64,000 bases of DNA, from contig JAPLOA010000088.1 in NCBI GenBank assembly GCA_026400835.1, forward strand, positions 1-64,000, in the 5' to 3' direction. Each line of letters opens with the position of its first letter. Position 1 is the first letter of the stretch. Below are positions 205-56,454 of this stretch, piece after piece. Source of the stretch: Planctomycetales bacterium (GTDB lineage: Bacteria; Planctomycetota; Planctomycetia; Planctomycetales; Planctomycetaceae). A program made the translations under genes and the position numbers. The notes beneath the pieces were generated by a model. The model was not told the origin of the DNA. It did not search any database and worked only from the letters and a program-made list of their open reading frames with translations.

Positions 205-334
205 AAATGCGCAACTTCAAAACTGACGCAACAGGTTGGAATACCCCCAAAACGCGCAACTTCAAAACGCGTCAGCGAGGGATTATTGTTGAGTACGCGA
301 AAACAGTTATCCCTCACTCACGTTTCGGGTTGTG
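205..334. repeat. Truncated TIR element abutting a family-1 hairpin
   Basis: The right-end motif CGCAACTTCAAAA occurs twice (210-222, 255-267). The second copy is followed directly by CGCGTCAG and the rest of a family-1 hairpin (GCGAGGGAT near 275-283, ATCCCTCACTCACG near 309-322, ending in CGGGTTGTG). CGCGTCAG is the reverse complement of CTGACGCG, the site used by the element at 42894-43065. No left end (TTTTGAAG) is visible upstream, so the copy looks truncated. What is seen is the motif and its junction; calling it a decayed insertion is inference. Confidence 0.6.
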
Positions 335-11600: not shown

Positions 11601-14600
11601 AGCCGATGTGGTCTTCCACAATTCGCTGAACGGAGTTAATTGGTTCCAGTCGAGCCAATGGATCGGCCGCATTGGCTTCAAATGTCTGCTGCAGAGCAGC
11701 CGGCATTCGGCCGTTCGATGAAACGGCAACATAATATCGCTTGTCGTTCGCTTCAGGCAGAGCCACTGTGCCAAGGAAGGCGTCCAGCTTACCAACGGAT
11801 CCTCGGGTCAGATTATTCAGACCAGTTCCCGTTCCAGGAGCTGGCTGATCGTCGACAACATCAGAGTCTCGAGTGACGAACATCAATCGCCCTGCGCTGT
11901 CATAGACCGACAGGATTGTGTCCGGTCGCGACAGACCGTCAGCGTAGTCAATGTCAAAGATCGTGGCCCATGACTTTCCACCGGCGTTGACGCCAGCAAT
12001 CGCCTGAATAAACTGGTAGTCCACGGAGAATGAGAAGAAGTCAACATCGTTGGCGGAGGAAAGGTTTCCACTGACACTGATCGTATTGCGGTCGGATGAC
12101 AACAGATCACCGATAAACTCTGCTCCGCCTGTGCCATTGTTATCCTGACCGGTCGTTTCTCCAGCCTCGCCGCTCAGCGGTGAGTGGCCAGGCATGCCGT
12201 ACATTTCAATTCCGTCTGTGGCGAATCGCAGATCTCCAAATCGGACCGTCGATCCCGGGATTTCGTCTCGCTGATTCACTCGCACCTGAAGTTGGTAGGC
12301 CCCGGATGTCAGCGCGCCCTTGCTGCGAACACGAACAAAATAGGTGCCTTCAGCGCCCGTTGGTCCCGGCAGGATAACTCGGAAGCCTTCGTCCATAGGG
12401 TTCGTTGAGTAATAATCTCCGCCCAGAGCCGCAGCCTTTTGCATAGGCAATGCAGTGCCGCTCAGCACACCTGCATCTGACCGCGCGAGTACCGAACCAG
12501 CCGCCGACACGAGTTCGAGGACGCTGTCGAAGTGACTGGATGTGCGATCCAGGTCCAGCCAAACTTCGCTGCCAGCGATCCCCTTGAAGCTATAGACATC
12601 GACATCACCCGGTGTGTCGGGGCTTATGTGACCGTGAATCTCAAAGCCCACTGGTCGATTGTCATCGCCGCTCTTCTCGTTTGGAGCCAGAGTGCCCACA
12701 AGCTGTGGCGACGTTGTTTCCTGGCCGCCCGTCAATGCTTTTTCTGTTTCAATGACGACACGAACATTCCGATCGTTGCTGTATTGCTCAAGCTTGACAC
12801 TTCTCCAGTCGCCAGGAGCCGCCTGCGACGCAGTGCCGTCACCGTTGGTATCCAGTACAGGGAATCCGTCAAGGTCAAATCCAGCACCCACGGTGTCGTC
12901 TTTAAGCGATGTCATCACGACCGGGAACCCGGGTGAACCGATGACCTGAACTGTTCCGCCAATACGGTCGTCGATATCAATTTCCACACCGCCAGCCGTA
13001 AAGCCTGCGGCAGCACCGCTGAGTTTGACGACCAGACTCTCCGTTGGCCGACTTTGCAGTCGAATTCCACTGTAGGTGTGGTGATTCGGAACATAAACCT
13101 CTGTGTACAGCACATGCACAATGTCGGTGTCGTCCCAAACACTTTGCGTTGTCAGAGCACCACCACGAACTTCCATGCCGTTGACATCGTTATTCCGCAT
13201 CAGGTTACCACTAATCAACGGCCCGACGTTGTCATCGAGCTGTGACAGTCGTTGTACATCGCCCGTACTACGGCCTCGGTCAACACGCTCGAAGGAGTTC
13301 AACGAGTTCACGTCGATACTGATGATGTGGCTGCTCGTGTTATCACGGAATTCGTTCTTGACGATGATTGGCTGCGCGCCACGCACAAAGATCACGGCTG
13401 AACCGTTGGTCCCGCGTCCATTCCGAGTCGCATCGACTCCGGCCACACCAGTGCCATCCGCATTGAATTCAAGCCGTGAATTTCCGATACGAACATCGGC
13501 CTGATGAATTTCAATCAGATTGAATTCATTGAACTCGCCTTCAATTGGAGTTCTGCCACCGCCATATCGAATGATTGCGTGGTCAATGCTTCCTGACGAT
13601 GTTGCATTGAAGAAGACTCCACCCCAGTCCCCGGCTGCTGCACCAGCGGCGGCAAGGTTGTTCGTGGTGTCAAACGTTCCACCGATCCCGTATTCGTCGT
13701 CCAGGATCGAGGTCATGATGACCGGACGCTCTTTCGTGCCTTCCGCGAGGAAGTTGGAATTCCCCAGCAGCATTTCAATTCGAGATCCACCCAACTTCAC
13801 AATAACACCCGGGTCGACCTCCAGACGGCCACTCAAACGAGCAACACCGTCCAATGGCCCGCCTGGATTGCCCGTGATGGCAAGGTTTTCTGTAATGACG
13901 TGCACAATATCGTCGTCGTCAAATCGAGCCTGGACGTCTACCGTATCAATCGGCTTGCCAAGATCGGTCTTAACTCGAACGAAAAGGCCGTTCAACGTGT
14001 TGTTGGTCAGGTTGTTGCCATGAATTTCAGGCCCGATGCGATTTCCTGACTCATCAAATGAGTTCGGATTCGCGGACATCGCTGCCTTAGCATTGTTCGT
14101 CAAAGTATTGAAAGTGATCGTCGGCCGCGCAGACACCATGTGGATCGGGGTAAAGATGTCAGGCACCGAGTCAACAACAACTTCACCACCGCCAAAAGTG
14201 ATGTTCGCCTTGTTGACGTAGTTGAGGAAAATTCCCTGAGCTTCATAGTCAGAGTCGTCTCGGAAAACGACACCACCCCAGTTACCGCCAGCGACCGGAG
14301 CACCAGCACCGTTGGAGTCGCCACCAAGAGCATCGTTCAGGTACGATGTCAGGTAAACCGGCCGATTCGGAACACCCAGAATCTGAATCGCACCGTTGCT
14401 TCGGTCAATTCCCTGTGCCGACGAACCCGCATCGATATTCGCAGACTGCAACTTGATGACGGCATCCGCATCAATCATCAGGGTGACGCCCTGAGGAACT
14501 TCCAGAGTTCCACCATCCTGCAGAATCGCGTTCGATGGCGTTACACCGATCAGGTACGGCTTGGCATCATTCGCGGTGAGTTCATTTCCGTCCGTGCCGC

Positions 14601-17343
14601 CGTTACCAACAACTCGGATGATTGAGCCAGCAGAAACATTAAGAACAGCATCACTGATCTTGTTGTAGGGAGTCGCCAGCGATCCATTACCACCGTTGGC
14701 AGCTGCTTTGTCCACGAAGATCGTGTTCGCAACCTGGAAGAAGAATTCATAATCGCCACCGGCAATTCCGTCAGCATCGCCATCGAATTCAACTCCCGTT
14801 CCTGTGCCTGACAACGGGGCGTCCAGAAGTTTATTCGTGGCTTCAGGCTCAAAATTGAGACGCAGCTGATAATCACCATCTGTCGTGCCGCCATAACCGG
14901 AATCCGGAATGCTAGGGTCGTAAACATCATTCCCGGTACTGCTGACGCCGATGAAGTATGTCCCTGCTTCAAGCTCCAGCCCAACGAATGAGTCACCACT
15001 AAAGTAGTTGTCGTTCTGCGACAGTAACTTCCCGCTTGCATCGTACAGGCGCAGGACGCTGTCCAAATTGCTGACCTGACGTTCCGCCAGAATATCGGCC
15101 GAGAACTTGCCCTTCGTTGGCAAGTTAAACTGGTACATGTCAATGTCTGTGCCGTTCGGCTGATACAGACGCTGAATGTGAACGGTGTCATGGTCGGTTG
15201 GGAAGATCGGTTCTCGAGGAGTCGCAGGACCAGCTTCACCTTCACCCATCACGGAGATCAGATCGTAAGCATGATCCAGTCCGAGAGCATGACCAATCTC
15301 ATGCAACGCGACGCCGAACCAGGCACCACCGTATTCGCTCTTACCCCAGTCAATGTTGGCGTTCATCAGGGCGAACCCACCGCCACCAAGTCCCGCCGCA
15401 GCATTCGGCGGCATCATTGGTTGCTTGGCTCGTAAGTCACCAGTAATCACCTGGATCCCGCTATTCGCGGTTTCACGAACAGTCATTCCGGTCTTCTTGG
15501 ACCAGATCTCGAAGATTTCGCGAGCCCGTTGCTTCTGATTTTCTGTGATGGCATTGTGCAGAATGTTGTTCTGAGGGTCACGACCGTAAACATCTGCAAA
15601 GTTGAACTCGATTACGCTCAGGGCTCCCGGTACGGCAGGCGTCGTCCCGCTTGAACCGATATGAGACTCCGCCGGGATATCACGATGACCGGGCTCATCA
15701 TTACCACCAGCATATGGTGGAAGTGCAATACCTTGAGGCGTGATCTGCGAATTCACAACCTGACTCGCAGTTCCCAGTGAACCCAGATTCGTTGCTGATC
15801 CAAAGCTGGAGTTCACATCAGCAGGCACGAATGCAGTCGCACTGGAGACGGACAGGCTATACGAACCTGTTGTTGTTCCTGCCGTCGATGACGCGGAATT
15901 CCCGGCGGTATAGGCTGCATTACCCTTGCTGCTGATGCCCAGGTAAAACGTTCCTGCGGCCAACGAAGGACTGAGCGTTTCCACGCCGCCGTTCCCGTTG
16001 ACATCCGCGATAAAGACCTGAGTACCGGCATTATCGAAGACACGTAACACCAAGTCGGTGCCGGACGCTGGAGTGACCGTCAGAGTGACCGGTCGCGGAG
16101 CTGTGAGGTTAAATTTGTAAAGATCAACGTCCTTGTTCCCCAACGCTCCGCCAATAAACCCTGTCGTACTGAAGGTGTTCTGCAACACGGTTCCGATGTC
16201 AATTGCACCGGCCAGCGTCTCCTGTTCTGAATTGGACCCAATTTGCAGCGCATAGGTCGCATTCGGGAGATCAGCCGCAAACGTCAATATAGCGGTGTTG
16301 TTGATGGCGTCGTACACAACTGTGCTGGGCACAAGGAGCGAGTCATCGGCTGTCGCCAAGGTGCCAGCCGTATTGATCAATCGATAGAATGAGACCGTTT
16401 GAGCAAGAGCCGGATCAAGGTTATCTTCATTAAAGTGTACGATCACCTGATTCTTACGCTGAACAAGCCCGCCATCCGCAATCGTCAATCCGGCTGGCGT
16501 AGCGAGGTTTTTAACAACCGTTGGAGTAAAGGAAGCCCCCGTCAGGGTAATCTGCGCACCGCTTCCGCCGACAGTGACTCTCGCCCCAAATCCTGCCGTG
16601 GAAATTTTGCTGCGAATTTCAGTGGCAACCGTCGACGCCGACTGACCCGCAGTAAAGTTGAGGGCGATACTCCCTGCGCCCGTCGTCCCTGTGCTATTGA
16701 ACTCAAACAAGCGGGTCACAGTGCCCACCGTAATTGTCAATCTGTCGCCATCTGCAATCTGAGCAACGTTTACGACGTTTAGATTCTTGGCACGCAACAC
16801 CGGCTGCGGAACAACCCCCTCGACAACAGCTCCGAGATCCAGTCGAAACGTACGATCGAGATCCACACCGCCGTTGAAGATTTCATTGCCCTGATTTTTC
16901 AGAGGCGTCAGACCAGTTCCTTTCAGCGTGATTCGATAAACATCGTCCGGCAGATTCTCCGCAAATCGAACCACGACTTCTTCAGGATGGTCCCCGATTC
17001 CAACAAAGCCAATGGTCACGGGCACATCACCCACGCCATTCAGGATTCTGTCAGCTCCCCCACGAGTCACCTGGATGGCAGAGCCCAAATTTGTAGAACT
17101 GATCAATTGGCCCGGGTTGAATTGCAGTGTCAGTTCACGGGGAGCAACATTGCGCGTCTCCCCTTCGATAAGAATGTCGCCCACATTGGGACGAATTGCG
17201 ACCAGCGTTGGGGCTGTCAGCAGTGATCGAGTTTCAAGGTTCTCAGAAGCCTGGGATGCCTGCTTCTGGTTCTGACGACGTTTCACAACACGAGGAGCCT
17301 GAAGACGATTTCGGACTGCAGTCAACCAGGTGGAAATCAGCAT
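2638..17343 (-). CDS. Giant secreted mosaic protein with metzincin-type protease
   Basis: This 4901-residue protein is probably exported. A basic N-terminus leads to an LETRSLL tag (residues 36-42), a form of the LEPR-XLL signature of large planctomycete secreted proteins. Modules, by eye: PPC-like beta domain (~400-500); metalloprotease (~580-710) with HEIGHALGLDH (His681, Glu682, His685, His691) and Met-turn Met699; second PPC (~735-830); parallel beta-helix (~880-1480); PPC-like domains (~1580, ~1765); propeller-like stretch (~1960-2250); jelly-roll (~2350); Calx-beta (~2700); second beta-helix (~2930-3100); cadherin-like repeats (~3300-3800); YGDAPD and GEVEDY motifs (~3821, ~3970); eight fibronectin-like repeats with TPTxxW cores (~4000-4750). 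The C-terminus has a hydrophobic stretch then arginines (GILGALLALAPRALRRRKK), like a sorting signal. AGGG lies about 10 bases before the ATG. A role in adhesion, matrix or polymer processing is inference; the substrate is unknown. Confidence 0.9.
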   Translation of the reverse strand: MLISTWLTAVRNRLQAPRVVKRRQNQKQASQASENLETRSLLTAPTLVAIRPNVGDILIEGETRNVAPRELTLQFNPGQLISSTNLGSAIQVTRGGADRILNGVGDVPVTIGFVGIGDHPEEVVVRFAENLPDDVYRITLKGTGLTPLKNQGNEIFNGGVDLDRTFRLDLGAVVEGVVPQPVLRAKNLNVVNVAQIADGDRLTITVGTVTRLFEFNSTGTTGAGSIALNFTAGQSASTVATEIRSKISTAGFGARVTVGGSGAQITLTGASFTPTVVKNLATPAGLTIADGGLVQRKNQVIVHFNEDNLDPALAQTVSFYRLINTAGTLATADDSLLVPSTVVYDAINNTAILTFAADLPNATYALQIGSNSEQETLAGAIDIGTVLQNTFSTTGFIGGALGNKDVDLYKFNLTAPRPVTLTVTPASGTDLVLRVFDNAGTQVFIADVNGNGGVETLSPSLAAGTFYLGISSKGNAAYTAGNSASSTAGTTTGSYSLSVSSATAFVPADVNSSFGSATNLGSLGTASQVVNSQITPQGIALPPYAGGNDEPGHRDIPAESHIGSSGTTPAVPGALSVIEFNFADVYGRDPQNNILHNAITENQKQRAREIFEIWSKKTGMTVRETANSGIQVITGDLRAKQPMMPPNAAAGLGGGGFALMNANIDWGKSEYGGAWFGVALHEIGHALGLDHAYDLISVMGEGEAGPATPREPIFPTDHDTVHIQRLYQPNGTDIDMYQFNLPTKGKFSADILAERQVSNLDSVLRLYDASGKLLSQNDNYFSGDSFVGLELEAGTYFIGVSSTGNDVYDPSIPDSGYGGTTDGDYQLRLNFEPEATNKLLDAPLSGTGTGVEFDGDADGIAGGDYEFFFQVANTIFVDKAAANGGNGSLATPYNKISDAVLNVSAGSIIRVVGNGGTDGNELTANDAKPYLIGVTPSNAILQDGGTLEVPQGVTLMIDADAVIKLQSANIDAGSSAQGIDRSNGAIQILGVPNRPVYLTSYLNDALGGDSNGAGAPVAGGNWGGVVFRDDSDYEAQGIFLNYVNKANITFGGGEVVVDSVPDIFTPIHMVSARPTITFNTLTNNAKAAMSANPNSFDESGNRIGPEIHGNNLTNNTLNGLFVRVKTDLGKPIDTVDVQARFDDDDIVHVITENLAITGNPGGPLDGVARLSGRLEVDPGVIVKLGGSRIEMLLGNSNFLAEGTKERPVIMTSILDDEYGIGGTFDTTNNLAAAGAAAGDWGGVFFNATSSGSIDHAIIRYGGGRTPIEGEFNEFNLIEIHQADVRIGNSRLEFNADGTGVAGVDATRNGRGTNGSAVIFVRGAQPIIVKNEFRDNTSSHIISIDVNSLNSFERVDRGRSTGDVQRLSQLDDNVGPLISGNLMRNNDVNGMEVRGGALTTQSVWDDTDIVHVLYTEVYVPNHHTYSGIRLQSRPTESLVVKLSGAAAGFTAGGVEIDIDDRIGGTVQVIGSPGFPVVMTSLKDDTVGAGFDLDGFPVLDTNGDGTASQAAPGDWRSVKLEQYSNDRNVRVVIETEKALTGGQETTSPQLVGTLAPNEKSGDDNRPVGFEIHGHISPDTPGDVDVYSFKGIAGSEVWLDLDRTSSHFDSVLELVSAAGSVLARSDAGVLSGTALPMQKAAALGGDYYSTNPMDEGFRVILPGPTGAEGTYFVRVRSKGALTSGAYQLQVRVNQRDEIPGSTVRFGDLRFATDGIEMYGMPGHSPLSGEAGETTGQDNNGTGGAEFIGDLLSSDRNTISVSGNLSSANDVDFFSFSVDYQFIQAIAGVNAGGKSWATIFDIDYADGLSRPDTILSVYDSAGRLMFVTRDSDVVDDQPAPGTGTGLNNLTRGSVGKLDAFLGTVALPEANDKRYYVAVSSNGRMPAALQQTFEANAADPLARLEPINSVQRIVEDHIGFQGYSTTSTTAGSPPTPVPILPDKTEGLFDITTSTKLDTYVKPFTLQDVPLFGSSGSFLAINNPFDGSAYVSVGNSVTGLTDIAMRPDGVLFGVQANSGTLRRLSSADASQSAGGDDGIPTFGGLTQDFGGMAFRRTPEVTTGSYELFVANNNRWDQDGANNNNEAPPALWRLNADSGGLVDESSATGIQNVGSLPGTGNITGLAFASMASSTLFAVDDNGQVWRANVGGSQGSRGVGAWTQVNLTNVTAPLGGFTGITLGPQNVEDGVYSQVLFASGADGNLYAFNQTGVGQVIFDTDADGVADATSTAGNSLFASTGLAFSPLDFNLWHPTLRRGNDQGHGINTPLDNSRNPGIATHVLDGHDVSEAAGGASFYFGLEQWQQDPKSAFTYFQMNSGEGQHGVRNQSLQRELTTNGAIANSYNLPGGAQGSLVTNSFSLEGYKATDRPTVYFNYFLETDDTNRSTSDMQDAARVYASDDGGLTWQLVATNNSVRNRTDSELPAYSSHSATQTPADGRQLVQELFDNTGKWRQARIDLGKFGGKSDVKLRFDFTTSGNMNDLTVDGQTYGNFNDRDRSLSNDHEGFYIDDIIVGIANRGEMATNSGANLGDAFYNAPADPSLITQHLSGEYQLEIRRGTEFGSTDDPLTPTFTVTNPLRATERFVSEYTLTVPTARVIQPGDSYVISNGIVTRTFVFNPISALPAGSFAVNVLSNASKGAVASALASAINGVSGFNVVATTRPSSVNSDIVDLTGAMNVSVTQMAAPADLTVGITATTTTEAAANTSLTVTRSGPTTSALTVQVSAVNPQTGASSPVVLTDGIVTPAATITVTIPIGQSFITLQLDPTNDLIWDGTDPVLVRATAAGFNSITDIIDVTDDDTGPLGQTGPLGILQMTLLQTTVRENGGNSGVTGYVTLRGASATDIDPYDNASPLIVTITSSDGSEVTSSSTRFVDGEMRAFFTMSIIDEFFTSGNSSLSITATAPGYTSDTKSITVADTGNFKFVDRLGDKNLHRQQGMVIIESNSIRNFAGYGIISDEATRSAGNQTNPGSVRNLATLNALRLIPGVTIRNNVVANLGTGGILFSGDVNNNFVPLAPVPFGKLINNTIYGGASANGIGIKIEQNASPTLLNNIVANTVTGIQVDGSSSSTVVATTLFQGNGSNGTIGSDFIILNNTDPLFVNPALNNYYPAPGSAAVDSSLNSLSDRPAFTAVKSPLGIPNSDLIAPEFDLFGQQRQDDPGQVNAGLGSDIFKDRGAIERADFNGPFASFTVPAEDNNTGDLDSGLTRIHVDNLLFPTTISIDLLDTGIGVDDTQVRSAQFKLYQNGTLLVENVDYRWRYNPNNNRVYFVSVTTFPVDTRYSITVDNTALTGIRDLAGNRLQENQTDGTTSFTLLLTDGINNAPVNTIPLRQTMNEDTTKVFSAANGNAITVADQDAYLGLVSPSANLTAADGVLQVTLQAVNGVLTLGGTSGLLSVVGNGTNNVTISGTITLLNAALDGLIYDTAQDFNGLVLNAITVTTSDLGNFGPLPTTIKTTVSQIEVDVLAVNDGPSFNPIAANTPPTVTEDAGAQTVLNFLTGISAGPADEAGQTLTANVTILSENSAWTPTTFFAAGGFPTITISGTTATLAYRTALDVNGTITVRVELNDSQSANNLSIARTFVITVTPLNDAPVRNPGFTPGTVPPRILVNGLEDESLVQNINVPLVNSFATGPATALDETTQSPIWSAINYTRTSGNLVFDVLQIRPDGSLDYRARKDTAGTATFDVLLQDSGASGGLNVNSAQVFSITITIVEVNDTPVAVTGNYVIDEGYSLNLNAGSSYDVDAPFGDTLTYAWDLNNDGDYTDTGEASGSSPTRTITWAQLVSLGITAPETRTIKLRVTDSRNQSNSSAVVNATLQTLIVDYGDAPDTFGTLKGSNGAAHTITGNLLLGTTRDNETDGQPGPNANLDGADEDGVTFPTSLERSPSTSLPAFVDVVSSGTGKLNIWLDLNGDGVFDPATEHLNGGVAWNVVAGVNRINFVIPAGNPVGDTYMRFRLTSASQPTVLPTGRANDGEVEDYAVKIRALQPPVSPDINRPIDFNTSDGQIPQTTDSTPTIVWTLDQANYNYELIVRNSAGQTVYSRLRTANYTQTSDTIPTSLPVGTYTAFVIAFNKAGTAALPSAFPFEVVKVAISSPTRSVNTSRPTIVWNHVPGTKAYTIEVYASSTNTIAFRQTVTTSSMATPGQFTLPADLPLANYYTRIQAIDAADLPGDWSASQFFFVRTAPVLLQPAAVVITPLPQVTWTPVTGAVSYDVQLFNLTDNVLVSSVTGIQGASWSPASPLSLAMYRVVVTARGAGGFMGLASNPLVFSYSPVPKIVAPGGRLPDSTPTFGWEAVPSANLYRLVVRQDFGNFLEVYRQNSLTGTFHELPFSLPLGRYSFSVVAVNTAAAGSGQADAISSRSLETTFSVVTPPIVLGVQGTSGPVLTTFLTRPTVLWTNPPETTSAARSQLLLYRKDGATNVLVLSQSNIVGTSMMMPTLGLGTYVVKVRTTSSADPATVSDWSIEKTFRVTVAPRLIGPTGAVTDSTPTLNWAGVTGGQTYQVEVIRLPGNVVAAGESGLNALNYTVPSSLPIGRYQFRVQARSAFGELSSWSESMDFQVVGGPTLLGPASSTFNTRPSFSWTNMSGTVGGTESVVPVYDFRLDVILPNNVVQANFRTASGLTSPSYTLPTALPVGQYRAMVLARTSDTTSNYSNFVEFYVGGNPVVNAIGSTTDTTPTISWKAVDGASGYQIFIALDSNPTVPVVQQLGIGSLSYTPTVPLVRGKYRVWVRAVNASNGQLSGPALTEAPSIIFTITDASGTQSQKVSGSYTMALFPVSMDDMVSESTISMLPAFVSGSQQPVVVVSEQSVDSSVQLKASVPVQTDNAVEVAPENVPQTDEILSQWGEQKWWDAAPVAVVAADVSKSETQPVTSASSGILGALLALAPRALRRRKKDESAT

Positions 17344-22829: not shown

Positions 22830-22893
22830 GTTTAACGGCAAGCCGCAGGCGACGGAGTCATGAAGCGCAGTCGCCTGCGGCTTGCCGTTAAAC
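22830..22893. repeat. Family-2 palindrome, copy I
   Basis: Two 24-base arms containing TTTAACGGCAAGCCGCAGG and its exact reverse complement (22830-22853 and 22870-22893) are separated by 16 bases. The palindrome starts two bases after the halogenase-like stop and is followed by TTATTTTTTG. On the plus strand it could therefore act as a terminator or attenuator before the methyltransferase gene. The arms recur at 26623 and 29692. Confidence 0.85.
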
Positions 22894-24063: not shown

Positions 24064-24178
24064 AAGTGGAATGCATTCGACCAAAAGATTCAGGGACCGA
24101 AAGATGAATCGCAGCATGAATGGCGAGGGGGGATTGCTTTCAATCTTTCTGTCATCAAATCTTTCTGTCAAAAGACGC
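24064..24178. repeat. Family-3 paired-unit palindrome, copy a
   Basis: The left side holds ATTCGACCAAAAGATTCAG and GACCGAAAGATGAATCG. The right side holds CAATCTTTCTGTCATC and AAATCTTTCTGTCAAAAG. Each side is a tandem pair of a ~16-base unit, and the two sides are inverted to each other. The right side overlaps the 3' end of the acetamidase gene and encodes its final residues and stop. Similar paired units occur at 25243, 25496, 40855 and 51224. Confidence 0.75.
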
Positions 24179-25054: not shown

Positions 25055-25779
25055 GTGAGTCCTCGATGAAGAGCGGAAAACGACGGCGGGGCGATGCGTT
25101 GATTTTGTTGCGGTGGGTCCTCAACAGTTTAGAGATTTCCCGGCGAGACATAACCTTAGCCATCCGGTTTCAACAAAACTTTCGCCCTACCGGAGAATCT
25201 TGTTCGGGAATGCGTTTCCGTGCTGCGGAAGAATTCGACCGAAAGATTTGATGACCGAAAGATTGAGGCCCGGGAACCTTGATGCTGTGAGCTTAATTTT
25301 TTCAACGTCCCGCTGCCAGGCTAAGATTGATCATCGAACGAAAGCGTTAAGGGCAAAAAGATGGCCAGTGTTTTTTTTGCCCGATCATTTTTTTGCCCCA
25401 AAACTGCTTACTTCTGCAACGCGGCACGGACGGTGCGCGCCGGGATCTCTGAGCATAGCCTTGAAGCGGGGCCGTTGTGTTTTCTCGGTTGCCCAATTTT
25501 TCGGTCCCACAATTTTTCGGTCAGATGTGTTCACGCGGCGTTAAAGAACATCGCTGGTTTGCCCGCTTTTTGCCCGCAAATGAAAACCCGAAAACCATGA
25601 AGCTGAGAGGAGTCTCATCGGCAACTCTGCGGATGAAATTGCTGATCCGGCTGGCAAACAATCTCACGCTGCCTCGAAACTTTTATCCGCGGCTATCACG
25701 GCTAAACGACGCCGGAAACATGAGCCCCACAAGGAGGCCGGGTGAATTCTGTCAAACCTGCCTTATCTTCGTAGCGTGA
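25055..25779. other. 725-base intergenic region with family-3 repeat units
   Basis: No gene is supported. A unit pair GACCGAAAGATTTGAT / GACCGAAAGATTGAG lies at 25243-25272, and an inverted pair AATTTTTCGGTCCCAC / AATTTTTCGGTCAGAT at 25496-25530. Between them are two T-rich units ending in GCCC (25369-25398) that have the same 16-17 base spacing, and a GGGCAAAAAGA that could pair with them. It reads as one or more decayed palindromic elements. Confidence 0.65.
25243..25533. repeat. Family-3 units in inverted arrangement, copy b
   Basis: The arms GACCGAAAGATT (two tandem units, 25243-25272) and AATTTTTCGGTC (two tandem units, 25496-25530) face each other across about 220 bases. The arm sequences differ by several bases, so this is either one expanded element or two half elements. 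The pairing is seen by eye; the boundaries are approximate. Confidence 0.6.
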
Positions 25780-26508
25780 TCATCTTGGCGTACTCATCAC
25801 GGCCAGGCATGCTGCGGCGGCAGTGGCGACGTTGAGCGATGGCACGGGCCCCTGAGGTGGCAGCGACACAAGCTGGTCGCAGCGATCTCGTGTGAGTCGG
25901 CGGAGTCCGGTGCCTTCGTTGCCCAGGACAAGCATCCAGTTGCGATCTCGATGAACGGTGTAGATTGATGATTCGGCTCTTTCGCACGTTCCCAGAACCC
26001 AGACCTGATTCTCCTGCGCTTTCTCCATGGCCTGAGCCAAATTGGCGACCACTGCAAACGGAACATGTTCCGCACCACCCGCGGAGATATCACAGACCGT
26101 CGCATTGACGGACGCACTACGATCCTTGGTCAAGACGATGCCTTTGACCCCAAAGAATCCGGCAAGGCGAAACAAAGCACCAAGGTTCTGAGGATCCTGA
26201 ATCTGATCCAGTGCCAACCACAATCCTCGTTCGCCTTCCGCAACATTCCACAATTTCTCGAGTGGCAGCGGAGACGGTGGTTCGACCGTCGCTGAACCTG
26301 CTCCGACACGTTCAGTATCGCGGCCGGACCTGGCCGTCCGAGGATCCACCGCACCAACTCGCACCGGGATGCGATGCTTCTGAGCCGTCTCGATCACCGG
26401 TTCCCAGGCCTCACCGGGATTGTCCGAATGCAGATGAATCTGCTTCACAGCTTTCGGTCGAACCTGCAGGGCGGCGAGAATACTGTGGGGATTTCGGAGT
26501 TCGAGCAT
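25780..26508 (-). CDS. TrmH/SpoU-family RNA 2'-O-methyltransferase (RlmB-like)
   Basis: This 242-residue protein of the SPOUT class methylates a ribose 2'-hydroxyl, in RlmB-like members a guanosine of 23S rRNA. The three SpoU motifs are present: DQIQDPQNLGALFR (~103-116) with the catalytic-type Asn/Arg, LVLGNEGTGLRRL (~193-205), and VPSLNVATAAAACL near the C-terminus, which build the trefoil-knot SAM pocket. The N-terminal third is a short substrate-binding domain (about 1-70), followed by a proline-rich linker. The protein ends almost immediately after motif 3, as in the family. No clear ribosome binding site precedes the ATG. The exact target nucleotide is inferred only from similarity. Confidence 0.88.
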   Translation of the reverse strand: MLELRNPHSILAALQVRPKAVKQIHLHSDNPGEAWEPVIETAQKHRIPVRVGAVDPRTARSGRDTERVGAGSATVEPPSPLPLEKLWNVAEGERGLWLALDQIQDPQNLGALFRLAGFFGVKGIVLTKDRSASVNATVCDISAGGAEHVPFAVVANLAQAMEKAQENQVWVLGTCERAESSIYTVHRDRNWMLVLGNEGTGLRRLTRDRCDQLVSLPPQGPVPSLNVATAAAACLAVMSTPR

Positions 26509-26622
26509 GATGGTTTCAGTGAATAACCAATTGTGTATTTTGAAGCGGAACGGTGCGAGCCGTCCGGTGAACGTTGAATAAAAAAGAGAATCACGGGAGT
26601 GCGATTGGGCTATTGACTCATT

Positions 26623-26864
26623 CGTTTAACGGCAAGCCGCAGGCGTCGCTTTCGCCTTTTGAAGTTGCGAGTTTGCGACCATCGCAACCCGAAACGTCAG
26701 TGAGGGATTGTTCTGTCGCGTTTTGCCAATGTCTCCGTAAATCCCTCGCTGACGCGTCGGGTTGTGATGATTCACTTTGTTTTCGCCCCGTTGGTCTCCA
26801 GCACGCTTGAACAGCGAAACTTCAAAACTTTCGCCTACGCCTGCGGCTCGTCGTCAAACGAAAA
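26623..26864. repeat. Family-2 palindrome split by an inserted element, copy II
   Basis: The left arm (TTTAACGGCAAGCCGCAGG, within 26623-26645) and the diverged right arm (CGCCTGCGGCTCGTCGTC, from 26838) belong to one family-2 hairpin. The 171-base element at 26657-26827 was inserted in its loop. Removing the element and one copy of its 8-base duplication rebuilds a compact hairpin like those at 22830 and 29692. Confidence 0.8.
26657..26827. mobile_element. MITE-like TIR element, copy 1 (171 bp)
   Basis: The element has 13-base terminal inverted repeats, TTTTGAAGTTGCG at the left and the complement of TTTTGAAGTTTCG at the right. It is flanked by a perfect 8-base direct repeat, CTTTCGCC (26649-26656 and 26828-26835). 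Inside lies a family-1 hairpin (26684-26768) followed by a segment shared with the copy at 42894 (CGCCCCGTTG here, GGCCCGTTGATC there). It encodes no protein. Terminal repeats plus a target duplication are seen directly; mobilisation by a transposase supplied elsewhere is inference. Confidence 0.85.
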
Positions 26865-26976: not shown

Positions 26977-27981
26977 TCATTCGGATTCTTTGCGAGCCTT
27001 CTCAATCACACTTGCCAGAGTCACGGGCACTCCGTTTTGCCGCTTGCTCTCATCGGCCGCTTCGATAAACGCAAAAATTTCCAGCATGACGTCTTCCGAA
27101 ACGGGCGATTGTCGCGTCTTAAAAAAGCGAGCGATCTCGATCACCAGCCCTTCATAATCCGCTGGCAACGGCACATGTTGCTGAGTTTTTGTGCCAAAGA
27201 TCATCGCGCCGAAGCCGGTCTTATGAGTATGCTCGCGGATGCCGCGATAAGTCCCAATGCGACCACTGGACCAGAGCCCGGTAACCTGTTCGCTCTTGTC
27301 GGTTTGAACTCGTGTTACAGAAATACACCCCGAGCCCATCACGGTGTAGAGCGTTTCGATGCCGTGCACTCCGTACCATGCAAGATCCGCATGACCGATG
27401 CCGGCACGAGATTGCCCATAGCTGTCGCAGCCGACGATCTCCCCCGCCACTTCACTGGCCAGGACTGACTGCAGTTCCTTCTGATATCGAAGAGCAGACG
27501 CTGTAAACCACGGAGTACCAGATTGCCGCCCAAGAGCCTGAATCTTCAAAGCATCTTTGAGATTATGAGCCAGTGGTTTGTCGATGAACACAGGCTTGCC
27601 GGCCTTGAAGATCGGTTCTACCTGAGCCAGATGCTGTCGACCATCAACACTGCCAAGAATCACGACATCAACTTTGGGCAAAAGAGTGTCGATCGAATCG
27701 ACAATCTCAACTCCCATCTCCGACATCTTTTGCGTGTATCCGGCAACTCGATCACGACTCAGAGGAAAGTCATCGCTACCCCCCGGATAGGCTGCCACGA
27801 TGCGAACACCGGCGAGATCCCCGGTGTTGCCGTCACGATGCAGGAGTTCGGTGAACGCCGTGCAATGCGACGAATCCAGCCCAATAAACCCGACACGAAT
27901 TTCGGTCACTGGTTCCGCCGCTGGCAGTTCCGCAAAAGGCGCGAGGGATAAAGCAGTGATGGCGGCAATAGTTCGATTCAT
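26977..27981 (-). CDS. Exported Gfo/Idh/MocA-family oxidoreductase
   Basis: This 334-residue NAD(P)-binding protein starts with a Sec-type signal (MNRTIAAITALSLAPFAELPAAE). A Rossmann fold follows with IRVGFIGLDSSHC in place of the usual GxGxxG, then VDVVILGSVDGRQHLAQV and the family hallmark KPVFIDKPLA (EKP replaced by DKP). The C-terminal half is the beta-sheet substrate domain, with HADLAWYGVHGIETLY containing histidines placed like those of the family's active site. An export signal on such an enzyme is common in planctomycetes, where many family members act outside the cytoplasm on sugars or glycans. GAGAGG lies about 10 bases before the ATG. No substrate can be assigned and no linked gene suggests one. 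Confidence 0.8.
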   Translation of the reverse strand: MNRTIAAITALSLAPFAELPAAEPVTEIRVGFIGLDSSHCTAFTELLHRDGNTGDLAGVRIVAAYPGGSDDFPLSRDRVAGYTQKMSEMGVEIVDSIDTLLPKVDVVILGSVDGRQHLAQVEPIFKAGKPVFIDKPLAHNLKDALKIQALGRQSGTPWFTASALRYQKELQSVLASEVAGEIVGCDSYGQSRAGIGHADLAWYGVHGIETLYTVMGSGCISVTRVQTDKSEQVTGLWSSGRIGTYRGIREHTHKTGFGAMIFGTKTQQHVPLPADYEGLVIEIARFFKTRQSPVSEDVMLEIFAFIEAADESKRQNGVPVTLASVIEKARKESE

Positions 27982-29504: not shown

Positions 29505-29691
29505 CAGCTCTCACCAAATCCGGTTCCACCCGCCAGCATCCTTCACCGGCTTCAATGGGGTTTCGCCTGAGTCAAAAGCGGAGTGTAGTCGCAAGCGAAT
29601 CGTCAGAACAGGCGGATCTGGAATGGTGCGAAAGGCGGTGTGCATGTGCACTGCGATGGGGCCGAGGTCATTTGCAAGACCTCAACTCACT

Positions 29692-29757
29692 CGTTTAACG
29701 GCAAGCCGCAGGCGCATGCGCACCTCGCAACGGTCGCCTGCGGCTTGCCGTTAAACG
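29692..29757. repeat. Family-2 palindrome, copy III
   Basis: Arms containing TTTAACGGCAAGCCGCAGG and its exact complement lie at 29692-29714 and 29735-29757, with a 20-base loop. The palindrome sits between two minus-strand genes (ATP-grasp and AcpH-like). It is the cleanest of the three copies. Confidence 0.85.
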
Positions 29758-29782
29758 AAATCTCCAACAAACAATCGCATTC

Positions 29783-40624: not shown

Positions 40625-41013
40625 AGACAGGATTATTCGCGTGGAGACGCATCGCCCCGGAGATCAGAAACGATTCTCACGAGCCGATGTCGTTCAGATT
40701 CCCGGCCAGAATTCCGTGATCCGCCAGTTCTCTTCCGTCAATCTAGCACAGCCAACGAGCCGCTGCCACAGTTCCATTGGCAGGGACGCCTTCTGGCGAC
40801 GGATTAATTCGGGCCCGAACTCAGCATTGCAACTTCCTCCGTGCCGAGGAAACGCATCTGACCGAAAAATTTGGGCGACCAAAAAATGAATCGCAGAACG
40901 TGAGGTTTTCTCTGCTCTCAATCTTCCGGTCACTAAATCTTCCGGTCGAATGCGTTTCAGCCTCGCAACATATCTTCCACGGCTCAATTACGTACAGCGC
41001 TGCACATCTGTCG
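40625..41013. other. Intergenic region with family-3 palindrome
   Basis: No gene is supported in these 389 bases. The family-3 element at 40848-40966 takes up about a third, and the remainder shows nothing. Confidence 0.6.
40848..40966. repeat. Family-3 paired-unit palindrome, copy c
   Basis: The left side, AAACGCATCTGACCGAAAAA, is followed by a second GACCAAAAAATG unit 17 bases on. The right side has CAATCTTCCGGTCAC and AAATCTTCCGGTC and ends CGAATGCGTTT, mirroring the left end. The outer ends GAGG-AAACGCAT and ATGCGTTT-CAGCCTC also pair. It is the best preserved copy of this family in the window. Confidence 0.8.
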
Positions 41014-42832: not shown

Positions 42833-43087
42833 ATCACAACCCGAAACGTCAGTGAGGAATTTCTCTGCAAGGCACCGAACCCTCGCTGACGCGTTTTGAA
42901 GTTGCGCGTTTGCGACAATCCCAACCCGACGCGTCAGCGAGGGATTGAGTTTTTGCGTTTGGACAGTTTTGCCCCAAAATCCCTCGCTGACGCGTCGGGC
43001 TATGATAATCCCCTGTGTTTTTGGCCCGTTGATCCCCGGCAGTCTCGAACAACGCAACTTCAAAACTTACGCGTCGGGTTGTGATTT
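42833..43087. repeat. Family-1 palindrome split by an inserted element, copy E
   Basis: The left arm TCACAACCCGAAACGTCAG (from 42834), the inner right arm CCCTCGCTGACGCG (ending 42893) and the outer right arm ACGCGTCGGGTTGTGAT (from 43069) together make one family-1 hairpin. The element at 42894-43065 interrupts it within the right arm. Removing the insertion and one 8-base duplicate restores an element that matches the copy at 2431. Confidence 0.85.
42894..43065. mobile_element. MITE-like TIR element, copy 2 (172 bp)
   Basis: The ends are TTTTGAAGTTGCG and its exact complement CGCAACTTCAAAA (13 bases). The flanking 8-mers are CTGACGCG (left) and CTTACGCG (right), a target duplication with one mismatch. 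It contains its own family-1 hairpin (42918-43008) and the same spacer as the copy at 26657 (both have GGCAGTCTCGAAC or GCACGCTTGAAC before the right end). It encodes no protein. Confidence 0.85.
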
Positions 43088-50999: not shown

Positions 51000-51467
51000 A
51001 TGCGATCGGCGAAACAGATTTGATCAGGCTCACATCCCCGAACCGCCTCGATCCACGGGCCCCTGTCGGCTTGAGGCTTCGGGAATTCTACGCGTCTCGC
51101 AAATTGACTCCCGCGCAACGCCCCGTATGAAACTGTTGAAACTGCGTCAGACTTGCAGAAACCGAACGAAGAATCTGGCTGGCTGGAAAATTGACAGCAG
51201 AAAGTAGCCCACCTCCCGGCGATTCAATTTTTCGGTCGTCAAATTTTTCGGTCGGATGTTCTCCTGCATCGAGAAACACGTCATAAAACGGCACCGTGTC
51301 TGAGCCATCTTAACGGCAGCGATTTCCCTTGAGAATTTCCTCAACCAACGAACTTCGGTTGATCCGCCGTTGCCTGAAGACGTTCCTGGCTGATACCTTC
51401 CGTCACCCGCTGATTTCGCCGAAGGAAGAATCGAGATTTATGGGATCCTGGTCTATTGGCCCGGCCT
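51000..51467. other. Intergenic region with one family-3 repeat
   Basis: No gene is supported in these 468 bases. It holds family-3 copy d (51220-51264) and otherwise shows nothing clear. Confidence 0.6.
51220..51264. repeat. Family-3 repeat units, copy d
   Basis: CAATTTTTCGGTCGTC and AAATTTTTCGGTCGGATG are two tandem units of the family-3 type (spacing 16 bases). The opposite arm is not evident upstream, so this is a half element or one that is too diverged to see. Confidence 0.65.
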
Positions 51468-55878: not shown

Positions 55879-56454
55879 TTATAACCCCGGTGCCGGCGGT
55901 GGTGCCGGTGCCGGTGCCGGAGCCGGTGGCTTCGGTGGGGCCGGTGCCGGTGCCGGAGCTGGTGGCTTCGGCGGGGCCGGTGGTGGTGGAGGTGGTGGAG
56001 GTGGTGGAACGGCCGCGACAGTGATCGTTGGAACTCGCTCCGTCAGCAGAGTCGTTTCGGCAGCCGCTTTGGCTGCGGACGTAAAGAATGGACTGATCCA
56101 TTGGTTCGCGGATGGTGGGATTGTCACCTTCACGGTGACATGCCCCGTCGAGTCCGTGATGACGGCCGGAGTCACCGTAACCGTTGCACCTGCGATTCCC
56201 ATGATCGCCAGCATTTTGTCTGCGGCAGCTTTCGCTTCACCGGCGGTGGCACCTGGCACGATAACGTTTCGGGCGGCTTCGTAGGAGACGTTTTCTGCGT
56301 ACTGACGCAGCATCGACAAACGAAAGAACTCAACGCCGGCGAAAATCAGCACGAAGAAAATCGGAAGTACGAGTGCAAGTTCCACCATCTGCGTGCCGGC
56401 TCGGGGAGAGCCCTGGCGTATTGTCTGTCGAGAATTTTCAGGAAAGGCTCGCAC
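55879..56454 (-). CDS. TadE-like pseudopilin with proline-rich tail
   Basis: This 191-residue protein has a short basic leader, then the TadE-type segment QMVELALVLPIFFVLIFAGVEFF (~22-44), which is the membrane anchor of minor pseudopilins of Tad (tight adherence) systems. A globular domain follows. The last ~45 residues are almost only Pro, Ala and Lys (runs of ten prolines, then PPKPPAPAPAPAP repeats), unusual for TadE. In the DNA this tail includes two exact-spaced 36-base units (55904-55939, 55940-55975) and a GGTGGTGGA-type microsatellite. The GTG start has GGAG about 9 bases upstream, overlapping the previous stop, so it is coupled to the TadG-like gene. The tail may span or bind peptidoglycan; that is inference. 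Confidence 0.8.
   Translation of the reverse strand: MRAFPENSRQTIRQGSPRAGTQMVELALVLPIFFVLIFAGVEFFRLSMLRQYAENVSYEAARNVIVPGATAGEAKAAADKMLAIMGIAGATVTVTPAVITDSTGHVTVKVTIPPSANQWISPFFTSAAKAAAETTLLTERVPTITVAAVPPPPPPPPPPAPPKPPAPAPAPAPPKPPAPAPAPAPPPAPGL
55904..56012. repeat. 36-base tandem repeat plus GGT-rich microsatellite
   Basis: Two 36-base units (55904-55939 and 55940-55975) differ by two bases, C versus T and T versus C, both third-codon or silent-type changes. A (GGTGGTGGA)-like run follows to about 56012. On the minus strand it encodes the proline-rich tail of the TadE-like protein. Such repeats can change in number by slippage. Confidence 0.8.

Follow-up and report, generated by a model that had tools for sequence, protein, structure and literature searches.

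The 171-bp element and its setting

The window analysed here is a stretch of 64,000 nucleotides from a planctomycete contig (JAPLOA010000088.1). Between a SpoU-type rRNA methylase gene (25780-26508, minus strand) and a GFO/IDH/MocA oxidoreductase gene (26977-27981, minus strand) it contains a non-autonomous element of 171 bp, at positions 26657-26827. The left terminal inverted repeat TTTTGAAGTTGCG (26657-26669, plus strand) and the right one, CGAAACTTCAAAA (26815-26827, minus strand, one mismatch), are 13 nt long and 92% complementary, with 12 of the 13 positions paired. On both sides the element is bordered by the 8-bp target duplication CTTTCGCC (26649-26656 and 26828-26835, identical at 8/8), which fits the motif CTNACGCN at 7/8, two positions being free. 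The direct repeat, CTTTCGCC(T) starting at 26649 and 26828, reads as 9 bases here because the first base of the element is a T, while other copies show 8.

Inside its ends the element carries a family-1 (REP-like) palindrome with a left arm at 26680-26709 (plus strand, 30 nt, 87%) and a right arm at 26740-26769 (minus strand), the latter containing the target motif CTGACGCG. The predicted RNA fold of all 171 bp has an energy of -74 kcal/mol (z-score -7.2 against shuffles), and its main stem is the carried hairpin. There is room for at most 57 codons and no transposase gene lies inside, as in a miniature inverted-repeat transposable element (MITE). The insertion target was a family-2 palindrome, whose left arm (26621-26646, plus strand, 26 nt, 88%) and right arm (26837-26862, minus strand) now enclose the element. 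Terminal repeats, CTTTCGCC flanks, family-2 setting and carried family-1 hairpin were thus all found where the initial annotation of this DNA had placed them. Uninterrupted family-2 palindromes occur in the window at 22830-22893 and 29691-29758, at distances of 3.7 kb (left) and 2.8 kb (right) from the element; a tryptophan halogenase-family gene (PF04820, 21254-22828) directly precedes the former.

The window contains a second closed copy at 42894-43065, within a family-1 palindrome arm and with the flanks CTGACGCG and CTTACGCG (7/8). For this copy the contig of the relative G015 starts beyond the locus, the flanks in G017 are on separate contigs, and G004 has no non-repeat match among the matches listed. 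Two stacked element ends are found at 210-222 and 255-267 (210-267, minus strand), where a type-B element end, broken by another insertion running off the contig, lies 44 bp into a truncated type-A copy.

Other repeats were noted as well. Positions 1-124 of the window, together with contig ends (L089, L090, L092-L094, L096, L097, L104, L107 and L124), belong to another multi-copy sequence, probably an insertion sequence, which has the ends AGGCCGTGAA and recurs at the same point of type-B elements. It breaks the assembly, seems to start a transposase gene (ATGAGCACAAAGACAAAATC) and has an apparent 5-bp duplication, CGGAG, as judged from different contig ends. The end of contig C98 and the start of C80 (L097 and L096) flank one type-B element, and the counterpart in G015 (C302, L139) is uninterrupted; the assembly gap is the nested insertion. 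At three further contig ends (L091, L095 and L098) a repeat beginning with TTAGGTTTAGGCACATTTCC enters GGTGGCGTGAGCC or a similar sequence at the same point in both palindrome orientations, so that at least three element families seem to target palindromes in this genome. Units resembling CAATTTTTCGGTC and GACCGAAAAATTG make up a further, distinct family of palindromes, present in the window at 24140-24172, 25234-25266, 25494-25545, 40843-40970 and 51219-51276, and a 12-bp tandem repeat resembling CCGGTGCCGGTG lies at 55887-56006.

A family of elements with the same ends

The genome to which the window belongs (G000, 7.58 Mb in 112 contigs) contains 111+110 sites matching the 13-mer end with at most one mismatch, as compared to 16+15 sites for the reversed pattern, from which it follows that up to about one-seventh of the single 13-mer ends could be chance matches. 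At least 192 distinct ends were located individually, and some of the 111+110 sites are not among these. In the examined stretches of G000, 218 ends with at most two mismatches gave 97 candidate pairs spaced 150-300 bp apart, from which 70 primary pairs were kept by length (164, 168, 170-172, 174, 227 and 238 bp) after one overlapping pair had been dropped. The element at 26657 is one of the 67 closed copies of 164-174 bp, referred to as type A. In these 67 copies the conservation of the 13 end columns is 0.93-1.00 for the left end and 0.96-1.00 for the right end, the copies having been picked by the presence of such ends. A genome-wide search with the 171 bases, proposed in the initial annotation, gave at least 68 matching stretches in G000 (40 of 206 candidates scored), so that a chance arrangement can be dismissed. 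The annotation's reading of the locus as a nested MITE with a target duplication is correct.

The 67 copies are on average 85.6% identical to their consensus, and the identity to the nearest sibling has a median of 95.3% and reaches 98.8%. Such high sibling identities indicate that some of the spread of the family is fairly young. For the copy at 26657 the identities are 77.2% (consensus) and 86.5% (nearest sibling), which give no support to the earlier suggestion that this particular copy was mobilised recently. In G015 and G004, the two closest relatives, the element is absent from the orthologous locus and so is the family-2 palindrome, while another palindrome is common to both. The locus in these genomes is consequently not a strict empty site, and no such orthologous site was found for this copy. 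The neighbouring methylase is 100% identical to that of G000 in G015 and 97% in G004, which suggests that G015 is the closer relative. If so, the comparison points to an arrival of the 26657 element in the G000 lineage after its split from G015.

Target duplication and target site

For the 70 closed copies the left and right flanking 8-mers are identical at 8/8 in 29, at 7/8 in 18, at 6/8 in 8 and at 5/8 or less in 15. A match of at least 7/8 is thus seen in 47 of the 70 copies, whereas 2000 shuffles of the right flanks among copies gave 20.0 on average and never more than 32; this is a fair control because the target itself is conserved. For each of the two free positions in the motif, left and right flank carry the same base in 39 of 49 copies, where 17.9 and 20.2 would be expected. 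It is clear from the excess over the shuffles and from the agreement at free positions that the duplication is real, and the family has the fixed-length target-site duplication of a MITE.

At least one flank fits NGCGTNAG fully in 53 of the 70 copies and at 7/8 in 8 more (61/70, free positions scored as fits). When at most two mismatches were allowed over the whole pattern, 82 ends were preceded by the target in the form CTNACGCN and 97 in the form NGCGTNAG, against 0 and 3 for the reversed patterns. NGCGTNAG lies within a REP-like palindrome arm, AACCCGNNGCGTNAGCGAGGGA, which is abundant, with 119+120 instances in G000 at one mismatch or less, those carried inside elements counted. Nine of the 70 copies fit the site at 6/8 or less, and among these are three duplications of 8/8 and three of 7/8; perfect duplications outside the motif are GATTGACT, CCGGCGCC and CAGACACT. 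The copy at 26657 hit the degenerate site form CTTTCGCC in a family-2 palindrome and not in the usual family-1 arm. The initial annotation had proposed that absence of CTTTCGCC from other copies would speak against its reading, an expectation that is misconceived since each insertion duplicates its own target.

Nested, single-ended and variant copies

Elements of the commonest type (A) carry the target palindrome as their interior, and elements are found inside elements. In four of six hand-picked nested cases, removal of the inner element and one duplication restored an outer element of 171-174 bp; the restored elements are 72-86% identical to the consensus, as compared to 54-60% for other stretches. 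On contig C52 both the inner duplication CTCACGCG and the outer duplication AGCGTCAG are perfect, and in the remaining three restored cases the outer duplications match at 7/8, 5/8 and 4/8. The outer element could not be restored to full size in the other two cases (C11, and C101 with a guessed left end).

Single-ended copies are common. A copy on contig C68 of G000 has only the right half and the duplication, and its ortholog in G004 is a bare palindrome with a single target, that is, an empty site. The C68 structure is as would be expected from recombination between the carried arm and the target arm.

The interiors vary. Elements of 227 and 238 bp with type-A ends carry GGCTGGAAGCCCGGC / GCCGGTGGCGTGAGCCACCGGC palindromes, one with a perfect duplication (C103:79825-80051, 227 bp) and one with flanks of the inverted type at 6/8 (C80:3659-3896, 238 bp), and another 227-bp element (C11:18621-18847, direct flanks 6/8) contains a TCCCTTCTCCC palindrome. 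Elements of 236-238 bp resembling the TCCCTTCTCCC type are present in G001, of the same genus, and elements of 62 and 226 bp with other hairpins in G023, which belongs to another genus. One orthologous palindrome arm holds a type-A element in G000 (L185, C101) and a type-B element in G015 (L076, C133), as a result of either two separate insertions at a single site or a swap of content through the ends.

Insertion sequences with the same ends in related genomes

Of 59 genomes, 13, with G000 among them, contain a target-tagged end pattern, and ten of these 13 belong to the 18 of 59 with the palindrome arm; the pattern contains the target and is therefore biased towards an association of end and target. 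At one locus (L136, in G008) a truncated transposase gene begins directly after the end, and a transposase protein search gave matches in G017 and G014. G008, G014 and G017 each have the transposase, or a piece of it, together with short elements with such ends. In Neorhodopirellula pilleata Pla100 (NZ_SJPM01000057.1) a full transposase gene is accompanied by a single end, which has two mismatches and lies where the contig stops, and its counterpart was not found at this locus. In a MAG labelled Pirellula staleyi a 14-base end adjoins the gene at the same target once per orientation (CAMCMB010000035.1 and CAMCMB010000148.1). At E-values up to 1e-15 the transposase is present in 10 of 170 genomes of the bacterial family. 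G000 is not one of the ten; its best match is 37% over 76 aa, and the earlier statement that the transposase is not encoded here holds in the sense that no close copy was found in G000.

Four complete insertion sequences were recovered from related genomes; a search for a full one with such ends had been proposed in the initial annotation. L248 (1507 bp, duplication CTGGCGCG) and L250 (1506 bp, duplication CGCGCAAG) lie in a palindrome arm with a 7/8 fit to the target; L249 (1526 bp, duplication GCGATCGG) and L251 (1495 bp, duplication GCCGGAGC) are outside the palindrome. The 8-bp duplication is present in all four, at 8/8 in each. The first 14 bases form perfect inverted repeats (20 in L251), and L248, L249 and L250 start with the same 13 bases as the element at 26657. 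Each contains a single open reading frame for a transposase of 459-470 aa. Four additional loci (L252, L253, L254, which is the G008 locus, and L255) have one end each. The MITEs thus have their ends in common with an autonomous element, represented by four complete copies in relatives and none found in G000. Beyond the 14-bp ends no clear similarity between MITEs and insertion sequences was detected (1 of 48 comparisons at p<0.05), and the MITEs are therefore not plain deletion derivatives.

Two homologs of the transposases in the complete copies, L222 and L223, match DDE_Tnp_1 in Pfam. The Y(2)R(3)E(6)K motif is found in all six aligned transposases. The D-D-E triad is readable in three of the six, the D1 or D2 pattern being unmatched in the other three, and where read it falls within the IS4 range D(60-110)D(100-150)E (L222 with D113, D215 and E358; L249 with D97, D205 and E348; L223 with D75, D177 and E319). 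Among the NCBIfam models the nearest to L222 and L223 are those of IS701 and IS4, and no listed insertion sequence model scores above its curated cut-off; the best match, the IS701 model NF033540, reaches 97.2 bits (cut-off 150) and the IS4 model NF033592 63.2 bits (cut-off 115). By the definitions in the available part of PMC2266710, the complete YREK signature and the 8-bp duplication favour IS4 over IS701 for the partner. The initial annotation had considered that the donor family could not be named. Complete insertion sequences in relatives with the same 14-bp ends, 8-bp duplications and the IS4-family signature now supply a name, and ISL3, IS66 and IS1595, given there as examples, are absent from the Pfam and NCBIfam matches of L222 and L223 at E-values up to 1. 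Searched against PDB sequences, the partner transposase had chance matches only, and a plasmid collection gave one remote match.

Several candidates for a partner were rejected. On C27 two ends spanning 2441 bp (13483-15923) resembled a full insertion sequence but belong to two separate short copies with a 525-aa gene between them, which we take to be Hsp70-like. At L144 in G023 an end without an opposite end that could be found lies 0.1 to 1.1 kb from presumed transposase-fragment frames, two of which were scanned without a Pfam match. Where contigs break off inside elements, as they do at eleven ends, other repeats were reached, probably insertion sequences nested in type-B elements, and not the partner. 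The only related transposase in G000 is at the 3.2-kb locus L228, where no TTTTGAAG end pair was found at up to three mismatches; TTTTGAAG has one weak forward match there and no reverse match. At the same locus a gene for a Y1_Tnp protein (IS200-like, PF01797; L228:2059-2610, on C27 of G000), a possible RAYT for the palindromes, is located beside the gene for a 413-aa DDE_Tnp_1 transposase.

Proposed mechanism and alternatives

The copies in G000 form a real MITE family, which is probably driven by a REP-targeting element of the IS4 type. We put the probability at roughly 0.88 that the element at 26657 is a MITE moved in trans by a REP-targeting IS4-type DDE transposase that recognises the common ends and prefers NGCGTNAG. 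The ends, the duplications, the target preference, the nesting, the varied interiors and the existence of complete insertion sequences with the same ends and duplication length are evident from the sequences themselves. The IS4-type transposase would act on the short non-coding passenger through the common ends TTTTGAAGTTGCGC, presumably by cut and paste, and would generate the 8-bp duplications with a preference for NGCGTNAG in the REP-like arm AACCCGNNGCGTNAGCGAGGGA. With a target palindrome as the type-A interior, every insertion would bring new sites, and copies would enter copies. Single-ended copies may have been trimmed by recombination between carried and target arms. The same type of transposase is the putative mover of the copies in G000, from which the source insertion sequence would have been lost, unless it was left unassembled.

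A possible though doubtful extension is that one IS4-type transposase serves a self-seeding pool of same-end shells with interchangeable palindromes, gathered on landing or by recombination, the commonest content being the landing site itself, so that each insertion would provide two new sites. If this were true, palindromic repeats, which are usually credited to tyrosine transposases, would spread as cargo of a DDE element in these genomes.

A minority of copies have inverted flanks, which simple insertion does not yield. In G000 this applies to four of the 70 copies, which match at 7/8 in inverted and at no more than 3/8 in direct orientation and all of which lie in stacks of ends. Among 29 candidate elements in relatives, five have inverted flanks of at least 6/8 and eleven have direct flanks of at least 6/8. 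Such flanks could stem from loss of the remaining hairpin, after insertion or through recombination within stacks, or from an occasional replacement of inverted repeats as in IS1272. Insertion into inverted repeats without target duplication is described for IS1272 in the part of PMC5678879 available. By analogy, the element would replace the palindrome loop without duplication, an explanation of the minority that we regard as unlikely. It draws on L147, L152 and L212, with inverted flanks of 8/8 and direct flanks of 2/8 or less (L210 and L211 are inverted at 7/8); direct duplications are seen, however, in the bulk of the copies and in all four complete insertion sequences, and loss of a hairpin remnant after ordinary insertion, or stack recombination, gives the same picture.

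Regarding the family as a whole, a different, unsampled transposase could move the MITEs, with ends that resemble those of the IS4-type element through convergence or borrowing. That no close IS4-type copy was found in G000, and that the similarity of MITE and insertion sequence stops after the 14-bp ends, would fit such a situation. Yet the same 14 bases occur with the same duplication length, and two of the four complete insertion sequences occupy the same point of a variant form of the palindrome arm used by the MITEs, and we find this origin of the mobility quite improbable. Still less credible is a spread as REPs or REPINs by a REP-associated tyrosine (IS200/IS605-like) transposase, in which case the apparent duplications would be the repeated palindrome on both sides. 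Interior and target are indeed REP-like palindromes, and at least one Y1_Tnp protein is encoded in G000 (the L228 gene mentioned above). But the free motif positions agree within copies far above chance (39 of 49, twice), 8/8 duplications also occur outside the motif, and the complete insertion sequences with the same ends carry a DDE transposase, judging from the Pfam matches of the homologs. To our knowledge, RAYT products come without target duplication. Finally, the possibility that the 171-bp element and the family-2 palindrome are one fixed composite repeat, copied together, is the remotest of all, since the joint absence of both from the 26657 locus in the closest relatives is outweighed by the element-free family-2 palindromes on either side and by the family-1 target motif that flanks most of the other 69 tabulated copies.

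If the trans-mobilisation by an IS4-type transposase is accepted, a likely transposase is assigned to an orphan family of mini-elements, and part of the intergenic palindrome clutter in these bacteria is explained as nested, site-directed insertion. The system offers REP targeting by a DDE transposase, with 14-bp ends and a target (NGCGTNAG) that is short and defined, which makes it directly testable, and a clear case of a mobile element carrying its own landing site. Insertions can also be ordered in time, because copies are stacked on identifiable older palindromes.

Comparison with known systems

The partner resembles the IS4 family, as characterised by De Palmenaer et al. in 2008 (PMC2266710), in its single-ORF DDE transposase, complete YREK motif, length of about 1.5 kb, 8-bp duplication (close to one helix turn) and, where read, D-D-E spacing. 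Its ends YTTTGAAGTTGCGC, by contrast, fully fit no subgroup consensus in Table 1 of that paper. By size, duplication and the first two bases the nearest subgroup there is ISPepr1 (YT-AA-YTT---A, 7-8 bp, 1500-1600 bp): the duplication agrees, the lengths of 1495-1526 bp agree fully or nearly so and the ends start with YT, but most other consensus bases mismatch. The IS701 family differs, in the same account, by a 4-bp duplication and an incomplete YREK motif, where the partner has 8 bp and a complete one.

The REP-targeting insertion sequences ISRm22, ISPsy8, ISPa11 and ISPpu9/10, treated by Tobes and Pareja in 2006 (PMC1525189), likewise enter a repeated extragenic palindrome at a fixed point; ISRm22 is listed as a member of the IS4 subgroup IS4Sa in PMC2266710. 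As portrayed in PMC1525189 these are autonomous and present in 4 to 9 copies where numbers are given, whereas here we see mostly MITEs in dozens of copies, the main type of which carries the target itself. The bacterial MITEs Nezha, NEMIS and RUP, named in PMC3733652, are likewise short and non-coding, with terminal inverted repeats, and thought to be moved in trans. In contrast to these, the elements here have only the 14-bp ends in common with the presumed parent and several unrelated palindromic interiors.

The target and the type-A interior are REP-like and recall the REPs, REPINs and RAYTs (PMC3116915, PMC2817692), from which the elements differ by inverted ends and target duplications common to a DDE element. 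REPs or REPINs moved by a RAYT are not known to show duplications and would depend on a Y1 transposase; the copies here have 8-bp duplications and a DDE partner. Among the titles and abstract starts listed in searches of open-licence literature we found no paper on this element or on planctomycete MITEs with such ends, and likewise no REP-targeting MITE or MITE carrying its own target. The parts of the system, namely REP-targeting insertion sequences, MITEs and the IS4 family, are known, and it is their combination that is new.
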